Shown here piece by piece: positions 2,746-9,774 of a DNA stretch of 64,000 nt. The stretch lies in the NCBI RefSeq assembly GCF_003014555.1, contig NZ_PYGE01000001.1, positions 248,001-312,000 on the forward strand, given 5' to 3'. Positions within the stretch are counted from its first letter, which is position 1; each line of letters starts with the position of its first letter. A model generated the notes under the pieces. The model was not told the origin of the DNA, did no database searches, and worked only from the letters and a program-made list of their open reading frames with translations. Origin of the DNA: Haloactinopolyspora alba (GTDB lineage: Bacteria; Actinomycetota; Actinomycetes; Jiangellales; Jiangellaceae). A program made the position numbers and the translations under genes.

Positions 2746-4080
2746 TCAGTCGTCCGAAAGCCGCTGGAGCAGCAGTGCCTCGGCTCGGCAGACCTTGGCG
2801 AACTGCCCGAGGTGCAGGCTCTCGTCCACACCGTGCGCGCCGGAAGCCGGGTCCTCGACACCGGTGACCAGAACCGCCGCGTCCGGGAAGATCTCCTGGA
2901 ACTCGGCGATGAACGGGATCGATCCGCCGACGCCGATCCGCACCGGCGGCACCCCGAAAGCGGCGCCGAACGCCGCCTCGGCGGCGCCGAACGCCGCGTT
3001 CGCGGTCTCGAGCTCGACCCCACCGCCCGCCATGCCGTCGGTCACGGTGACGTGTGCGCCGAAGTCCGCGTGGTCGCGCAGGTGCTGCTCGAGCGCGTCG
3101 AGCGCCACCCGCGGGTCCTGGTTCGGCGCCAGCCGCATGCTGACCTTCGCCCCGGCGCGGTGCACCAGGACGTTCGCCGCGTCGGCCACGCTCGGCGCGT
3201 CGATACCGACGACGGAGACCGCCGGCCGCGCCCAGATGCGGTCCGGCAACGAGCCGGTGCCCGTCAGTTCGACGCCGTCGAGCAGCCCGGCCTCAGCGCG
3301 GAATCGGTCCGCCGGGTAGTCCACGTCCGCGGCGTGGTCCGTGACCAGCCCCGGCACCGCGACGTCACCGTTCTCGTCGTGCAGCGTGGCCAGCATCCGA
3401 CACAGCACGGTCAGCGCGTCGACCACCGGACCGCCGAACATGCCCGAGTGCACCGCCTGCTCGAGCACCTGAACCTCGACGTGGCAGTCGACGCCGCCGC
3501 GCAGGCTGACGGTCAGCGCAGGCGTGTCGATGCTCCAGTTCATCGAGTCGGCCACGACGATGACGTCGGCGGCGAGACGATCGCGGTACGTACGCAGGAA
3601 CGAGGTGAACGTCGGCGAGCCGATCTCCTCCTCGCCCTCGACGAACAGCACAACGCCCACCGGCGGGTGGCCGTCGTGGGCCCGCAGGGCGGCGAGATGG
3701 GCGGCCACCCCGGCCTTGTCGTCGGCCGCGCCCCGGCCGTAGAGACGTCCTGCCCGCTCGGTGGGTTCGAACGGCGCGCTGCTCCACGCGCCCTCCGGAC
3801 CGGTGGGCTGGACGTCGTGGTGTGCGTAGAGCAGCACGGTGGGCTGCCCGTCGGGTGCCGGCCACCGTGCGATGACCGCAGGTGCGCCGTCGTCGACGCT
3901 GACCACGTCGGCTTCCGCGGCCCCGGCCTCGCGCGCCAGCCGCGCCACCTCGTCGGCGCTCGCGCGGACGTCACCGGAGCGGTCCGGGTCGGCGCTGACA
4001 CTCGGAATGCGCACCAGCCGTTCGAGGTCGGCGCGGACGGACGGCAGGATCGCCTCGACGGCAGCGGAGATGTCGGTCAC
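2746..4080 (-). CDS. M20 family zinc dipeptidase/aminoacylase
   Basis: A 444-residue cytoplasmic metallopeptidase of family M20 (dipeptidase branch). Metal ligands are visible in order: His in LLYAHHDVQPTG, bridging Asp in GRGAADDKAG, the Glu pair in VEGEEEIGS, and the last His in SGAHGVDESLHL. The dimerisation insert lies between them. The start is GTG; TAGGGT lies 8 nt upstream and could be a -10 element giving a very short leader. The gene probably degrades dipeptides or deacylates amino acids taken up after extracellular proteolysis, fitting the neighbouring carboxypeptidases; the substrate is not determined by sequence. Confidence 0.87.
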   Translation of the reverse strand: MTDISAAVEAILPSVRADLERLVRIPSVSADPDRSGDVRASADEVARLAREAGAAEADVVSVDDGAPAVIARWPAPDGQPTVLLYAHHDVQPTGPEGAWSSAPFEPTERAGRLYGRGAADDKAGVAAHLAALRAHDGHPPVGVVLFVEGEEEIGSPTFTSFLRTYRDRLAADVIVVADSMNWSIDTPALTVSLRGGVDCHVEVQVLEQAVHSGMFGGPVVDALTVLCRMLATLHDENGDVAVPGLVTDHAADVDYPADRFRAEAGLLDGVELTGTGSLPDRIWARPAVSVVGIDAPSVADAANVLVHRAGAKVSMRLAPNQDPRVALDALEQHLRDHADFGAHVTVTDGMAGGGVELETANAAFGAAEAAFGAAFGVPPVRIGVGGSIPFIAEFQEIFPDAAVLVTGVEDPASGAHGVDESLHLGQFAKVCRAEALLLQRLSDD

Positions 4081-4126
4081 GATCTCGCACCCTAACGCCT
4101 GCGGCCCGTGCCGACGCGGCTCGGCC

Positions 4127-4187
4127 GGAGACGATCAGGTGACAAAACGAGCGGCATCCGGCCGAAGTTTGTCACCTGATCGTCTCC
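4127..4187. repeat. Perfect 20-bp inverted repeat
   Basis: GGAGACGATCAGGTGACAAA (4127-4146) is matched by its exact reverse complement at 4168-4187, leaving a 21-nt loop. It lies between the M20 gene and the nuclease gene. It could fold into a long hairpin ending the nuclease transcript or act as a protein-binding site; there is no U-tract. Confidence 0.8.
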
Positions 4188-4205
4188 AGTCCACATTCTG
4201 GAGAT

Positions 4206-4264
4206 GATCAGGTGACGGTCGGCCGCCCTTCAGCAGGCCCTCTTCGTCAATCCGTCACCTGATC
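4206..4264. repeat. 13-bp inverted repeat with the GATCAGGTGAC core
   Basis: GATCAGGTGACGG (4206-4218) is exactly complementary to CCGTCACCTGATC (4252-4264), with a 33-nt loop. The core is the same 11-mer as in the hairpin at 4127-4187, but the loop sequence is unrelated. Confidence 0.75.
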
Positions 4265-4278
4265 GCGGCAGAACGAAC

Positions 4279-4308
4279 GATCAGGTGCCGGAACGACGAT
4301 CAGGTGAC
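4279..4308. repeat. Two direct copies of the GATCAGGTGAC core
   Basis: GATCAGGTGCC (4279-4289, one mismatch) and GATCAGGTGAC (4298-4308) are in direct orientation 19 bp apart. The second copy supplies the stop codon and last two codons of the nuclease gene, so the repeat has extended into coding sequence. Confidence 0.7.
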
Positions 4309-7023
4309 GGCGCCGGTGTACCGCCTCCGCGGGCGCGACCAGGCGTACAGGCCCGCGCCGAGGCCGAGCACGGCCAGCATGCTGACCAACCAGCCACCGA
4401 GCCCGGCGCCGGTGTCGGGAAGCATCCCGCCGCCGTCGCCGGCGGCCGCCGCGCCGGCACCGTCGTCGCCCGAACCGTCCGCCGCGCCGGCACCGTCCGC
4501 CGCCCCGGAACCGTCATCGGTGCCCGTCTCACCGGAGCCGTCGTCAGCGCCCGTCGTCCCCGTGCCGTCGTCCGTTCCCTGTTCCGAGCCGCTGTCCGTC
4601 CCCGGATCCGTGCCGTCCTCGCTGCCGGGCTCACTGCTGTCCTCGGCCGCGCCGACGCCGACGACGATCGGGTCGTGGTCGCTCGCCCGGAACACCGACT
4701 CGCCGTCGAAGAGGTCGCTGGCGAAGTAGTTGTACCGCGAGTACTCGAACAGCACCGACTCGACCGAGTTGATGTTCCACACGTCGACACCGCGGATCAG
4801 GTCGTTCTCGATCACCGACCGGCTGGCCAGCACATGATCGAGCGAGCCGACCTTGCCGTCGAACACGTAGGTGTGCTCGCCGGCGTACTCGGCGTTCAGG
4901 TTGGTGTAGCCGGCGTCGGCGAACACCTGCATCGGGTTCTCGTGGGTGTAGGAGTTGAAGTCGCCGAGCAGGAACACGTCCTCGGTGCCGGTCTCGGCGA
5001 CCAGATCGTCGGCGAAGCTCACCAGCGCCTGCGCCTGTGCCACCCGGTCGGCGTCGAAGCACCCCTCCGGCGGTTCCGGGTCGCCGCAGTCGCCGCCCTT
5101 GGACTTGAAGTGGTTGGCCACGGCGATGAACGAGTACCCGGTGTCGGTGGCCGTGAACCGCTGCGCCAGCGGCTCACGTGCGTTGTCGAACGCCGGCGAC
5201 CCGGTCAGCACGACCGACTCGCCGACCGGCTGGACGGCGTCGGTGCGGTAGATGAACGCGTTGCGGATGACGTCCTGCTGCTCCAGCGCCGGCAGCTCTG
5301 CCGGAGAGGCCGCGTAGGCCCAGGCGCCCGCCCCGGCGTCCTCGTTCAGCGCGTCCACCAGCGCGGCCAGCGCGGCGTCGCGGTCCTTGTCGAACTTCGC
5401 GGAGTTCTCGATCTCCTCCAGCGACACGACGTCGGCGTCCAGGCCGTTGATCGCCTTGACGATCTTGCCCTCCTGCCGCTCCAGGTTCTCCGCGTCCCAT
5501 GCGCCGCGAAGCTCACAGCCGCCACGGACGCTGATCGGGTTGCCCTCGCGGTCGGTGTACGGCTCGCAACCATCGACGTCCACGCCGAGGGTCGTGAAGT
5601 AGTTCAGCACGTTGAAGGTGGCGATCTCGACGTCACCGCCGACGTCCTCCGGTGCCTGGTTCGCCGCGCGGGTGTTCCCGGAGTCGAACGTGACGACGTC
5701 GGGCGCGGGCCCCTCGACCGGCGCCTTCGGCTGGAAGTTCCACTGGAACCGGTAGTCGAAGATCACGTCCGCCTGGAACGTGGCGTCCGTGCCGGTACGC
5801 GGCGGCGCCTCCGGCGACAGATACGGAACCTCGCTGTCGGTGGGCGTCCGGTTGGACCGGCCGTCGTCCAGGGTGACCGCGCGCGCCGCGTTGTCGGCCA
5901 CGGCCGCGTCGTACTCGGGCGTTCCCGGCGCGGCGACGTCGGTCTCCTGCACCAGCGGTCCACCGAAGCCCAGCCCGATGGAGCCGAACGCGTTGTCGCC
6001 CCAGCCGCCGAGCGCGTACGTGTCCGAGACCACGTAACCGGCAGCGGGATCGACCAGCATCCCCTCGTACACCTCGCGGCGCTCGTCGCCGGCGGGCAAC
6101 TCGAACGGCACCGCCTTCACGGCCTCGGCCGGCTCGTCGAGCACACTCAGCCCACCGTCGTCGACGCTCACCTCGGTCAGTCCGTAGTACTCGGTGACCT
6201 CGCCGGTGACCTCCACGTGGTCACCGACGGCCACGTCACCGGCGGTGGCCGGCGAGTAGACGAACACCGCGTCGGAGGCGGTGCGCTCGCCCGGCTCCTC
6301 GTCGCCGCCGGTGCCCGGTGTCTGGATGTAGTACCCGTCGAACCCGCCCACGGGATACGCGGCCGTCACCACGCCCGAGGTGGTGATCGTCTCGTCCACC
6401 AACGGCGAGCCGGATCCTTCGCCCTGGATCTCGGCGATCGTCACCCGCTCGGCCTCACCGGGTGGCTCGTCGTCGGGCGGCGTGTTGACCTCGCCGAACG
6501 ACGCGTCGACCGGACCGATCCATGTGCCGTCCACCTTCTGCAACGACTGGCCGGCCGACGCGGACGACCCCTCCGAGACCCCGATGTCGGTGCTTTCGAC
6601 GTCCTGCAGCGGTCGCCCGAGTGACGCGGTGAACGTGCCCTCGTACGAGAGGAACTCGACGACGTCCTGCCGGCGATTCAGCAGCGCGACACCGTCCGGC
6701 GCGCCGTTCTGCAGGCCGTTCGTCTCGAATTCTTCGACCATGACGCCGGACTCGGGCACCGATCCGCGCAGCTTCACCTCGCCGTACGTCGAGCTGTTGC
6801 TGCCGTTCAGGAGTACGAGCCGCCAGCCGTTCAACCGTGTCCCCGGCTCTGCCTGGATCTCGATGGCTTCACCGGTGTCGGTGCCGCTGTTGTCGTAGTG
6901 GATCTCGCTGATGAAGGGGTCGCCCTCGGCAGCGACGGCGGGCACGGCCGCGAGGCCCGTTCCCGCCAGGCCGGCTGCGGCAAGTACCGCGGCCGCTGGG
7001 ATGCAACGCCTGGTCAGGCGCAT
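4300..7023 (-). CDS. Cell-wall-anchored extracellular nuclease (ExeM/NucH type)
   Basis: A 907-residue secreted nuclease tied to the cell wall. In order: signal peptide (about 1-32), a lamin-tail-like beta domain (SEIHYDNSGTDTGEAIEIQ), an OB-like middle region with GYYIQTP, then an endonuclease/exonuclease/phosphatase domain with VEIATFNVLNYF, VSLEEIENS, NHFKSKGGDC, LLGDFNSY and the terminal SDHDPIVV. A Ser/Gly/Asp/Glu-rich linker leads to LPDTG, a hydrophobic segment and an RPRRR tail, the layout of a sortase substrate. The ATG at 7023 has AGGAG 7 nt upstream. It follows the 5'-nucleotidase gene by 53 bp on the same strand, so the two may together degrade extracellular DNA to nucleosides and phosphate. 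Confidence 0.88.
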   Translation of the reverse strand: MRLTRRCIPAAAVLAAAGLAGTGLAAVPAVAAEGDPFISEIHYDNSGTDTGEAIEIQAEPGTRLNGWRLVLLNGSNSSTYGEVKLRGSVPESGVMVEEFETNGLQNGAPDGVALLNRRQDVVEFLSYEGTFTASLGRPLQDVESTDIGVSEGSSASAGQSLQKVDGTWIGPVDASFGEVNTPPDDEPPGEAERVTIAEIQGEGSGSPLVDETITTSGVVTAAYPVGGFDGYYIQTPGTGGDEEPGERTASDAVFVYSPATAGDVAVGDHVEVTGEVTEYYGLTEVSVDDGGLSVLDEPAEAVKAVPFELPAGDERREVYEGMLVDPAAGYVVSDTYALGGWGDNAFGSIGLGFGGPLVQETDVAAPGTPEYDAAVADNAARAVTLDDGRSNRTPTDSEVPYLSPEAPPRTGTDATFQADVIFDYRFQWNFQPKAPVEGPAPDVVTFDSGNTRAANQAPEDVGGDVEIATFNVLNYFTTLGVDVDGCEPYTDREGNPISVRGGCELRGAWDAENLERQEGKIVKAINGLDADVVSLEEIENSAKFDKDRDAALAALVDALNEDAGAGAWAYAASPAELPALEQQDVIRNAFIYRTDAVQPVGESVVLTGSPAFDNAREPLAQRFTATDTGYSFIAVANHFKSKGGDCGDPEPPEGCFDADRVAQAQALVSFADDLVAETGTEDVFLLGDFNSYTHENPMQVFADAGYTNLNAEYAGEHTYVFDGKVGSLDHVLASRSVIENDLIRGVDVWNINSVESVLFEYSRYNYFASDLFDGESVFRASDHDPIVVGVGAAEDSSEPGSEDGTDPGTDSGSEQGTDDGTGTTGADDGSGETGTDDGSGAADGAGAADGSGDDGAGAAAAGDGGGMLPDTGAGLGGWLVSMLAVLGLGAGLYAWSRPRRRYTGAVT

Positions 7024-7076
7024 CTGCTGTCTCCTCTGGATTCGGTGCAGACACTCGTCCGACGTGGTGTCAGGGC

Positions 7077-9536
7077 TCAGCTGTTCGAGTCTCCGGAGTC
7101 GCTGCTGGGTGTCGAGGTGCGACGGCGGGACAGCGCGTACAGACCGCCGCCGAGAACCAGGACGACGATGCCGCCGACGATCCACCAGGTGATGCCGGAG
7201 GACCCGGTGTCCGGCAGCTCGTCGGTGCCGTCGTCGGTACCGCCGGTCGCGTCACCACCCGTCTCGTCACCGGAGTCACCGCCGGTCTCGGTGCCCGGCT
7301 CGTCTCCGGCGTCGACAGTGATCGGCAACGTCACCTCGGTGCCGGTCTCGGGCAGCGAGACCGTGAGCTCGGTGTCGGTGGCGCCCGCCTGCTGCAGACC
7401 GGCACCGGAGAGATCGTCGGGGACGGTGACGCGGACCTCGGCGGAGCCGACCTGGTCAGTGGTGTCGACGATCGTGTCGTCGATCTCGAACTCGCCGAGC
7501 TCAGCGTCGCCGAGCGCCACCGTGAGCGTCTCGTCCATCGGCTCGGTGGTGCTGAACAGCAGCGAGGACAGGTCCAGGGCCACCTCGTCGCCGGGCGTGT
7601 AGACGGCGTCAGGATCGCTGACCCACTGGACGCCGACGGCACGCTGCGCGTAGTCGGGGGTGACCGGCGAGTTCTCGGCGAGATAGTCGACCATCGCCTG
7701 CAGGTCGATCTGCCCGGTGTCCGCGACGTCCGTCCCCTCGGCGAGGGTGCTGAAGTTGTCGCCGCCGGAGGCCAGGAAGGAGTTCGCGACGACCCGGTAC
7801 TCGGCGTCCGGATCGAGGGACTCACCCCCGAGGGTCACCGACGTGATGTGCTCGCCCTCCGCGCCCTGCGGGTCGTAGGTGTAGTCGAGCTCCGCGTTGA
7901 CGCCGAGCTTGAGGAACGGACGGCTCGCCCCCTCCGGCTGCCACTGCTCCTCGAGCACGTCGACGACCTGCTCACCCGTGAGTGTCATCGTGACCAGCGT
8001 GTTCGCGAACGGCTGCACCTCGGCGGCCTCCCGGTAGGTGACCGTGCCGTCCGGGTCGTCCGCACCGGTGCCGGCGTAGGTCATGTCCGTGCGCAGGCCG
8101 CCGGGGTTCATGAACGCGATCTGCGTCTCGGGGTCGGTCACCTGGGCCGCCGACAGCTGAACGTCGGCGACGAAGTTGCCGAGCGTCGACTCGCCACCGC
8201 GGTTCTCGGAACCATCGCTCTGCTGAGCACGGTTGAAGTCCGCGGTGATCTCGCCCAGCGGCTCCGCTCCCAGTTCCTCGGCCTTCTTGACGGCGTCCTC
8301 GACGATGCCGGCCACGGTCGGGTCCGGCTGGAACTCGGGGTTGGGCTGCCAGTTTCCCTCGTCGTCCTCGACGGTCAGCGGGACGATCTCGGAGTCGACG
8401 CCGGTGATCTCGTCGGCCGCCGGGTCGTACGAGAACCGGATCTTGTTCAGGTTGTAGCCGTACTGCCCGGCGCTGACGACCGGGCGGCCGAAGTCACGGT
8501 CGTCCCACTCGGGCACCGCGATCTCGTGGTCGTAGGCGAGGTGGGTGTGCCCGGAGACGATCGCGTCGACGTTCTCGTTCACTCCGTTGACGATGGCGCC
8601 GAAGTCGGTGTCGGGATCCGTGGCGGACGACTGGTCGGTCGTCGCCGCGCCCTCGTGCACCAGCAGCACGACGATGTCGGCGCCTTCCTCCTGCGTCAGC
8701 TGGTCGGCGACCCGGTTGGTCTCCTCGACCACGTCGAGCACGTCGACCTGGGCGATGCCGTCGGGGCTGACGAGCTCGGGCAGGTGCTCGGTCACGGCGC
8801 CGACGAAGCCGACCGTCGCGCCGCCGACCTCGGTCGTCCACGACTCGGCGAGCTCCGCCGGCTCGCTGTTCTCGCACCCGTGCGTCTGGCCGTCCTTGAC
8901 CTTGACGTTCGCGGCCAGGTACTGCCACGGCTCGCGGCCGTACTCGGCGGACATCTCCTCGATGAACGGGATCACGCGGTCAACCAGGTCGCAGTAGCCC
9001 TGATCGAACTCGTGGTTGCCCACCGCGCTGACATCCAGCCCGGCGGCGGTCAGCGCCTCGAGCGTCGGGTGGTCCTGGTCGACGAACGACACGAACGTGG
9101 AGGCCCCGATCAGGTCGCCCGCGGCCGCGAACAGTGTGTTCGGGTTGTCGGCACGCATCTGGTTCACCGCACCCGCCAGCACGGCGGCGCCGGCGGCCTG
9201 GCCGTCGGCCTCGATACGACCGTGGAAGTCGTTGATGCCGAGGACGTCGATCGGCACCGTGTCCGCCGTTTCGTCGGCCGGTGTCGCAGCAGGCGTCGCG
9301 CTCGGCGTTGCACTTGGCGTCGCGCTCGGCGTCGCACTGGGCGTCGCGCTCGGCGTCGACGTGGGTTCGGGCGTCGGCGAGGCGGTGGGCTCGGACAGGA
9401 CGGTTGCCGAGGGCTCGCCGGTGGGCTGTGCCGCGGGTTCGTCGGCAGCGGACGGCACGGACGCCATCCCGACCGCTGCCAGGCCGATGGCGGCGGTCGC
9501 CGCGACGGCCCGATGAGAACGCCTGATCAGGCGCAT
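7077..9536 (-). CDS. Cell-wall-anchored 5'-nucleotidase / UDP-sugar hydrolase
   Basis: An 819-residue secreted bimetallic phosphoesterase. After a signal peptide (about 1-31) and a low-complexity Thr-Pro-Ser-Ala linker comes the metallophosphatase domain (VLGINDFHGRIE, AAGDLIGAS, AVGNHEFDQG, SGHTHLAYDHE), then the C-terminal 5'-nucleotidase substrate domain (NFVADVQL, MNPGGLRTD, VVANSFLASGGDNF). A Gly/Asp/Glu-rich stretch precedes LPDTG, a membrane segment and an SRRR tail: a sortase signal like that of the downstream nuclease. The ATG at 9536 has GGAGG upstream; longer in-frame starts lack a signal peptide. It probably takes phosphate from nucleotides released by the nuclease. Confidence 0.88.
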   Translation of the reverse strand: MRLIRRSHRAVAATAAIGLAAVGMASVPSAADEPAAQPTGEPSATVLSEPTASPTPEPTSTPSATPSATPSATPSATPSATPAATPADETADTVPIDVLGINDFHGRIEADGQAAGAAVLAGAVNQMRADNPNTLFAAAGDLIGASTFVSFVDQDHPTLEALTAAGLDVSAVGNHEFDQGYCDLVDRVIPFIEEMSAEYGREPWQYLAANVKVKDGQTHGCENSEPAELAESWTTEVGGATVGFVGAVTEHLPELVSPDGIAQVDVLDVVEETNRVADQLTQEEGADIVVLLVHEGAATTDQSSATDPDTDFGAIVNGVNENVDAIVSGHTHLAYDHEIAVPEWDDRDFGRPVVSAGQYGYNLNKIRFSYDPAADEITGVDSEIVPLTVEDDEGNWQPNPEFQPDPTVAGIVEDAVKKAEELGAEPLGEITADFNRAQQSDGSENRGGESTLGNFVADVQLSAAQVTDPETQIAFMNPGGLRTDMTYAGTGADDPDGTVTYREAAEVQPFANTLVTMTLTGEQVVDVLEEQWQPEGASRPFLKLGVNAELDYTYDPQGAEGEHITSVTLGGESLDPDAEYRVVANSFLASGGDNFSTLAEGTDVADTGQIDLQAMVDYLAENSPVTPDYAQRAVGVQWVSDPDAVYTPGDEVALDLSSLLFSTTEPMDETLTVALGDAELGEFEIDDTIVDTTDQVGSAEVRVTVPDDLSGAGLQQAGATDTELTVSLPETGTEVTLPITVDAGDEPGTETGGDSGDETGGDATGGTDDGTDELPDTGSSGITWWIVGGIVVLVLGGGLYALSRRRTSTPSSDSGDSNS
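9292..9359 (-). repeat. 12-nt coding microrepeat (TPSA linker)
   Basis: A roughly 12-nt unit (GGCGTCGCGCTC on the plus strand) is repeated about five times and encodes a Thr-Pro-Ser-Ala tetrapeptide linker just after the signal peptide of the 5'-nucleotidase. Such a tract can gain or lose units without breaking the frame. Confidence 0.75.
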
Positions 9537-9774
9537 GAGTGACCTCCGAATGGCTTCGTCAACGGCGGGACCGTACCGATCGGGCGTGAACGGCAGGCAT
9601 ACGCCACGGCACAGGCTGTCGATACCTGTGCGATCCGTCAATGGGTCGCGCCGTCCGGTCGGCAGCCACGGGACATGGCGTGCCCACCCGGTTCACGCGC
9701 ACCGCCCGAAGCCGCCGTGCCGGTCGCGGAGATCCGGTCCGTCGTGCCGTGACCGGTGCCGTCGCGCGGCGGCG

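Follow-up and report, generated by a model that had tools for sequence, protein, structure and literature searches.

The repeat cluster at positions 4133–4308 of the window, the 64,000-nucleotide stretch of Haloactinopolyspora alba DNA analysed here, appears to be a single copy of a mobile repeat element of the Jiangellaceae that is non-autonomous, non-coding and multi-site. We propose, with a probability of roughly 0.6, that these arrays take part in a REPIN/RAYT-like partnership built on an unrelated nuclease, in which a protein combining AbiEi and DUF559 domains would drive the arrays in trans.

The array in the window contains six arms of the 11-mer GATCAGGTGAC, five of them exact and one, GATCAGGTGCC, with one mismatch. 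Arm 1 (4133–4143, +, exact) marks the inner end of the array and faces arm 2 (4171–4181, −, exact) across a loop of 27 nt between the 11-mers; together with 3–6 bp on each side, these two arms make up a 20-bp perfect inverted repeat (4127–4146/4168–4187; whole span 4127–4187). A 24-nt linker, GTCTCCAGTCCACATTCTGGAGAT (4182–4205, +), leads to arm 3 (4206–4216, +, exact). This linker is the sole conserved part outside the arms, with a family consensus of approximately GTTTCNGTCCACATNNTGGANAT. Arms 3 and 4 (4254–4264, −, exact) enclose a 37-nt loop (4217–4253) of the long class, which equals 26 + 11 and thus adds one extra helical turn, and their region gives a 13-bp inverted repeat (4206–4218/4252–4264). 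A 14-nt linker of the short class (4265–4278) is followed by a direct pair, formed by the mismatched arm 5 (4279–4289, +) and, 8 nt past it, arm 6 (4298–4308, +, exact), the outer, terminal end of the array. The reading frame of a wall-anchored nuclease (4300–7185, −) terminates at a TGA inside arm 6 (4300–4302, −). Each part of the cluster listed in the initial annotation, from the six arms, the two inverted repeats and the direct pair to the stop codon supplied by the last copy, was thus recovered. Allowing up to two mismatches to GATCAGGTGAC, the window contains 38 matches against a mean of 21.7, and none of 100 shuffles reaches 38. The nuclease belongs to the endonuclease/exonuclease/phosphatase type, and its gene adjoins one for a nucleotidase-like protein (4300–9641 for both); each product ends with an LPDTG-type sorting signal, and the two genes possibly form an extracellular DNA-use unit.

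The idea of a local accident, which the initial annotation had tied to a lack of further copies in the genome, can be set aside. The 5.54-Mb H. alba genome (G000) holds 258 exact copies of GATCAGGTGAC and none of the reversed motif used as a control, where 4^-11 predicts about 3 copies; chance is therefore ruled out. Nearly all copies are grouped into arrays, about 50 in number, which we sampled in 47 stretches (46 fetched, plus the window). Across these 47 stretches, arrays oriented so that the direct pair stands on the right usually follow the plan >26<24>26/27/37<14>8>, in which arrowheads stand for arms and numbers for gaps. When distinct gaps from H. alba, Jiangella and Phytoactinopolyspora were pooled, gaps of the >g< type measured 25–28 in 226 of 254 cases and 36–38 in 25, with none at 29–35. 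Gaps of the <g> type (n = 236) fell at 13–15 in 99 cases and at 23–26 in 123, and 59 of 81 >g> gaps measured 8. Arrays that have lost an arm keep the summed distances, for example 62 = 24 + 11 + 27.

The loops are random in sequence. Spacing classes one DNA turn apart, together with random loops and fixed arms, therefore suggest a DNA-binding protein, which would read the double-stranded arms on a helical grid. The earlier proposal that the arms rather than the whole unit are constrained accordingly applies to sequence but not to length, since loop and linker lengths are fixed as well. A hairpin with paired loops was considered and rejected, as neither the loops nor the bases beside the arms covary and compensatory changes in the arms are few. 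A known RNA family was likewise rejected, Rfam having returned only sub-threshold chance matches to miRNAs.

Comparison with relatives points to mobility. At the spacer orthologous to that between the nuclease and M20 genes, the congener G001 shows a repeat-free gap of 16 bp, a short <14> pair is found in J. anatolica, and the hairpins of other species are unrelated. Conservation of the arms in close relatives, as envisaged in the initial annotation, is therefore mostly missing at the site itself but is found for the family, which occurs elsewhere in Jiangellaceae genomes; we attribute the absence at orthologous spacers to movement of the element. In Jiangella G009 a different inverted repeat with 20-bp arms, GTTGATCTTGGAGTTGTTCG, follows the nuclease stop codon in the orthologous spacer (L169) and perhaps represents a second interspersed family. 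In J. muralis (G021), about 12 arrays at unrelated loci are alike in loops as well as arms, with identities of about 87–97%. Five J. muralis loci (L114, L096, L097, L100 and L103) have empty or near-empty counterparts in the sister species G017 and/or G018. At L114, 184 bp are inserted in J. muralis where 2 bp remain in G017, and the insertion provides a new stop codon for the upstream gene. The inserted units, about 180–305 bp, exceed the array in length, and their empty-site junctions are ambiguous, so that no target-site duplication can be read with certainty. A phage origin was also considered and rejected; IMG/VR contains no array sequences and no relative of the AbiEi–DUF559 protein.

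In two Phytoactinopolyspora genomes (G008 and G014) the arrays occur as facing pairs, mirrored arm for arm and mostly loop for loop. These arrays form the terminal inverted repeats of 17 elements spanning 440–1470 bp, with centres of about 100–1140 bp that are mostly short. Left and right arrays are more similar within elements (0.64) than between them (0.38). One such element (L271; G014 C23:298.4–299.5 kb) carries a glyoxalase-superfamily gene as cargo. Each G008 element has its own short inverted repeats at its boundaries, whose Watson–Crick pairing is 0.65 within elements; for shuffled pairs it was 0.50 and never exceeded 0.59 in 2000 shuffles. These boundary repeats may reflect insertion into host hairpins, or may simply extend the mirrored ends; the empty sites of J. 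muralis do not tell the two apart. Arrays in H. alba and J. muralis are mostly solo.

An array pair of H. alba at C8:170.8–172.3 kb surrounds a gene (C8:171056–171994) for a protein of 313 aa. Pfam gave no match for this protein alone, and PADLOC matched it to AbiEi at 1.9e-11. Among 25 homologues, 24 matched PADLOC AbiEi, 13 Pfam AbiEi_4 and 13 DUF559, and matches to DUF559 or MTES_1575 recur in the group. The C-terminal half matches a solved endonuclease-like structure (PDB 3hrl, E 2.7e-5), and of its acidic active-site residues E208 is the same in all homologues, D239 and E250 in nearly all. Judged from these matches, the protein is predicted to join a winged helix of the AbiEi type to a DUF559 PD-(D/E)XK nuclease. 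No AbiEii nucleotidyltransferase toxin gene was seen beside the homologues, whose neighbours include SdhB, PadR, HAAS and PcrA. As a partner of the arrays, a RAYT/Y1 transposase was rejected: PF01797 (Y1/HUH, the RAYT-family transposase) was found in none of 22 Jiangellaceae genomes, with controls positive in 5.

Gene and arrays are co-located well beyond H. alba. Homologues of at least 58% identity are enclosed between two GATCAG-type arrays in G000, G008, G014 and G013, and have an array on the 3′ side only, at the stop codon, in four Jiangella genomes (G018, G007, G015 and G011). The gene adjoins sdhB in H. alba and Jiangella and pcrA in H. alba and G008, and the G014 copy lies elsewhere; from the shared neighbours it follows that the site is old and the gene mainly inherited. 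There is usually one close copy per genome, and some copies seem damaged (two pieces in G013, a 17-residue deletion in G011). The gene occurs in all but one of 9 array-rich genomes and in none of 6 array-poor Jiangella, with a p of 0.0014 that is not corrected for kinship. On the tree, the gene/array correlation comes down to five independent contrasts, all agreeing or neutral, which are too few for significance (sign test p 0.06–0.125). The main contrary fact is J. muralis, which has about 60 array pairs, some of them recent, and no homologue above about 34% identity. Its arrays without a close gene call for a different enzyme, a gap in the assembly or a recent gene loss.

Arm sequence and protein also diverge together. 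Proteins from three genera that go with GATCAG arms form one clade (support 99/98), and a sister clade includes the congener G001 and three genomes of the Phytoactinopolyspora group. G001 encodes a diverged homologue and has arms of its own, GATCATGAGKC, in 19 dispersed pairs that all follow 11-26-11 with a short linker of 13 nt; no such pairs were found in G008, G014 or G012. Geometry has thus been kept while arm and protein changed jointly. The arm sequence tracks the protein clade and not the host species. Across several actinobacterial families, 20 of 30 homologue loci have matching flanking inverted repeats, compared with 0 of 177 control genes, on a flank-match score whose highest control value was 39 and whose lowest value among the 20 was 40. 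Paralogues of about 33% identity (L307–L313), found in many Jiangella with several per genome, have palindromes of 46–60 bp on both flanks, for example CATGATCATCCAGGATCGACC; elsewhere these palindromes have 0–2 copies among the stretches searched. Dispersal has accordingly been established for just two families, GATCAG and GATCATG. The arms of several diverged homologues also begin with GATC (GATCATGAG, GATCTACCGACA, GATCTTGCAGCGG and GATCTTGATGC at L292, L293, L299 and L302), and GATC at the outer arm end may be a shared tag of diverged families.

We hypothesize that each 11-bp arm would be a site for the AbiEi-like domain, and that inverted, helically phased sites would assemble a protein complex on the array. 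The resident nuclease would recognise the arms that flank its own gene as well as those elsewhere in the genome, and its nuclease domain would cut at the array and so promote the copying or insertion of arrays in trans, in the manner of RAYT and REPINs. Stop codons and 3′-end hairpins would then be by-products of insertion next to stop codons. What we infer in this scheme is that the protein binds, cuts and transposes, and in which order these events took place. Arrays might instead be operators of the AbiEi–DUF559 gene that another enzyme has spread. A broader version, in which AbiEi–DUF559 proteins would be a separate class of mobile-element enzymes that recognise their own inverted repeats, cut them through PD-(D/E)XK and seed the genome with cognate palindromes, we put forward tentatively, at somewhat less than even odds.

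The strongest competitor, although an unlikely one, regards the arrays as MITE-like derivatives of an ordinary transposon, with the AbiEi–DUF559 gene as cargo or as a selfish regulator or addiction gene whose operators resemble the arms by chance. The glyoxalase-superfamily cargo between mirrored arrays, the recent J. muralis copies without the gene and the inserted units larger than an array all suit this account. It is hard to reconcile with a family that recurs with its own flanking repeats at 20 of 30 loci in several families, with arms that track the protein clade, and with a gene often fixed at sdhB–pcrA, unlike travelling cargo; the lack of a Y1 transposase across the Jiangellaceae also speaks against it. 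As with MITEs and other miniature transposons, the arrays are short and non-coding with mirrored ends, have multiplied in recent bursts and are absent from matching sites in relatives, and in the 17 Phytoactinopolyspora elements they form terminal inverted repeats, but their ends are multi-arm phased arrays and a conventional transposase was not found.

Placement at gene 3′ ends bears on two further explanations. By our own gene calls, 43 multi-arm clusters lie in 20 convergent, 19 tandem and 4 divergent gene gaps, against a background of 75:287:77 (convergent:tandem:divergent) in the same stretches. Arms frequently overlap stop codons, because GATCAGGTGAC and its complement each contain TGA in one frame. 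Such placement, together with strong RNA folding of the array (z −6.7), would suit host-useful 3′-end hairpins, acting as bidirectional terminators or mRNA stabilisers, whose similarity selection or gene conversion would maintain. A point in their favour is the tig–clpP1 spacer, where most Jiangella have a single hairpin whose 12-bp GATCAGGTGACCA arms are those of the arrays. There, G011 shows a compensatory switch of one pair from T-A to A-T, and both it and G015 contain G.U wobbles. Full arrays occupy this spacer in G000, G014, G006 and G008, and G001 has unrelated hairpins there; within Jiangellaceae, hairpins turn over unusually often at this spacer (L190–L209). The two-arm form has the behaviour of a conserved 3′ hairpin, full arrays can form strong RNA hairpins, and the host may have taken over some array copies. 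As a general explanation we nevertheless find this improbable, since pairing needs no single fixed 11-mer in 258 copies, compensatory arm changes are few outside tig–clpP1 and absent from loops, the spacings are helically phased and the distribution is patchy and mobile. An intrinsic terminator, a stem-loop followed by a T-run, was not found at 3900–4500 of the window. The terminator array suggested by the initial annotation thus fits the 3′ ends and the fold but lacks a U-tract, and with arm conservation far beyond what pairing needs, termination would be a side effect at best. The suggested multi-site operator correctly anticipated arms that resemble protein-binding sites, here phased like those of winged-helix proteins, but a regulon of a transcription factor is very improbable: only 4 of the 43 clusters lie between divergent genes and most are beside stop codons, the neighbouring genes are unrelated, and the copies were recently dispersed.

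The third suggestion, a REP-like element, came near to right, as the arrays are dispersed, extragenic, mobile inverted repeats tied to a dedicated gene. In REPIN/RAYT systems, one dedicated, vertically inherited gene is flanked by its own repeats, which are fewer where the gene is missing (PMC3116915, PMC8049555). The arrays share with these systems inverted-repeat units that are non-autonomous, lie outside genes and number in the tens to hundreds (PMC3116915, PMC8049555), invariant arms with a variable spacer, dispersed inverted doublets and a single-copy, vertically inherited gene flanked by repeats, here array-bounded at sdhB–pcrA in several genomes. They differ in the absence of a Y1/HUH transposase, the gene being AbiEi–DUF559 PD-(D/E)XK, in having six phased 11-bp arms where REPINs have two 16-mers, and in terminal arrays that enclose elements of up to 1.5 kb. 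BOX elements and GTAG- and CGTC-tagged REP families are likewise short interspersed repeats of modular or palindromic build (PMC3733652, PMC3049150). On an informal look, the array consensus has no clear GTAG, GGAG or CGTC tag and no strongly conserved tetranucleotide outside the arms; GATC stands at the outer arm end and is common to several diverged families.

AbiEi proteins bind series of inverted repeats, and in the two studied cases these lie near the protein’s own gene with spacings of 3 and 13 bp, a difference of 10 bp (PMC7319586). The AbiEi antitoxins of type IV toxin–antitoxin systems (S. agalactiae AbiEi and M. tuberculosis Rv2827c) thus resemble the protein described here in an N-terminal winged helix of one family, in inverted repeats near their own gene and in spacing differences (10 bp; PMC7319586). 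Here, by contrast, the C-terminal half is a DUF559-type nuclease, an AbiEii toxin gene was not seen adjacent, and the sites are 11 bp rather than 23 bp long and lie genome-wide at gene 3′ ends. The word Actinobacteria does not appear in the text of the published survey of REP families, and in the open-access literature we found no paper joining DUF559 with inverted repeats or REPIN/RAYT with Actinobacteria.

AbiEi–DUF559 proteins are a large actinobacterial family, filed as orphan antitoxins or as proteins of unknown function, which is now tied to a concrete DNA target, and the interspersed palindromes of actinobacterial genomes gain a candidate maker. If these proteins do cut their own repeats and have seeded genomes with them, many unexplained interspersed palindromes of Actinobacteria would be accounted for. 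With the protein–arm pairs found (GATCAGGTGAC, GATCAGATGCA and GATCATGAGKC), the hypothesis is immediately testable. If the enzyme mobilises the arrays, a PD-(D/E)XK enzyme would be a transposase, or part of one, whose site specificity co-diverges with the arms, and the REPIN/RAYT way of life would have arisen at least twice, from unrelated nucleases.
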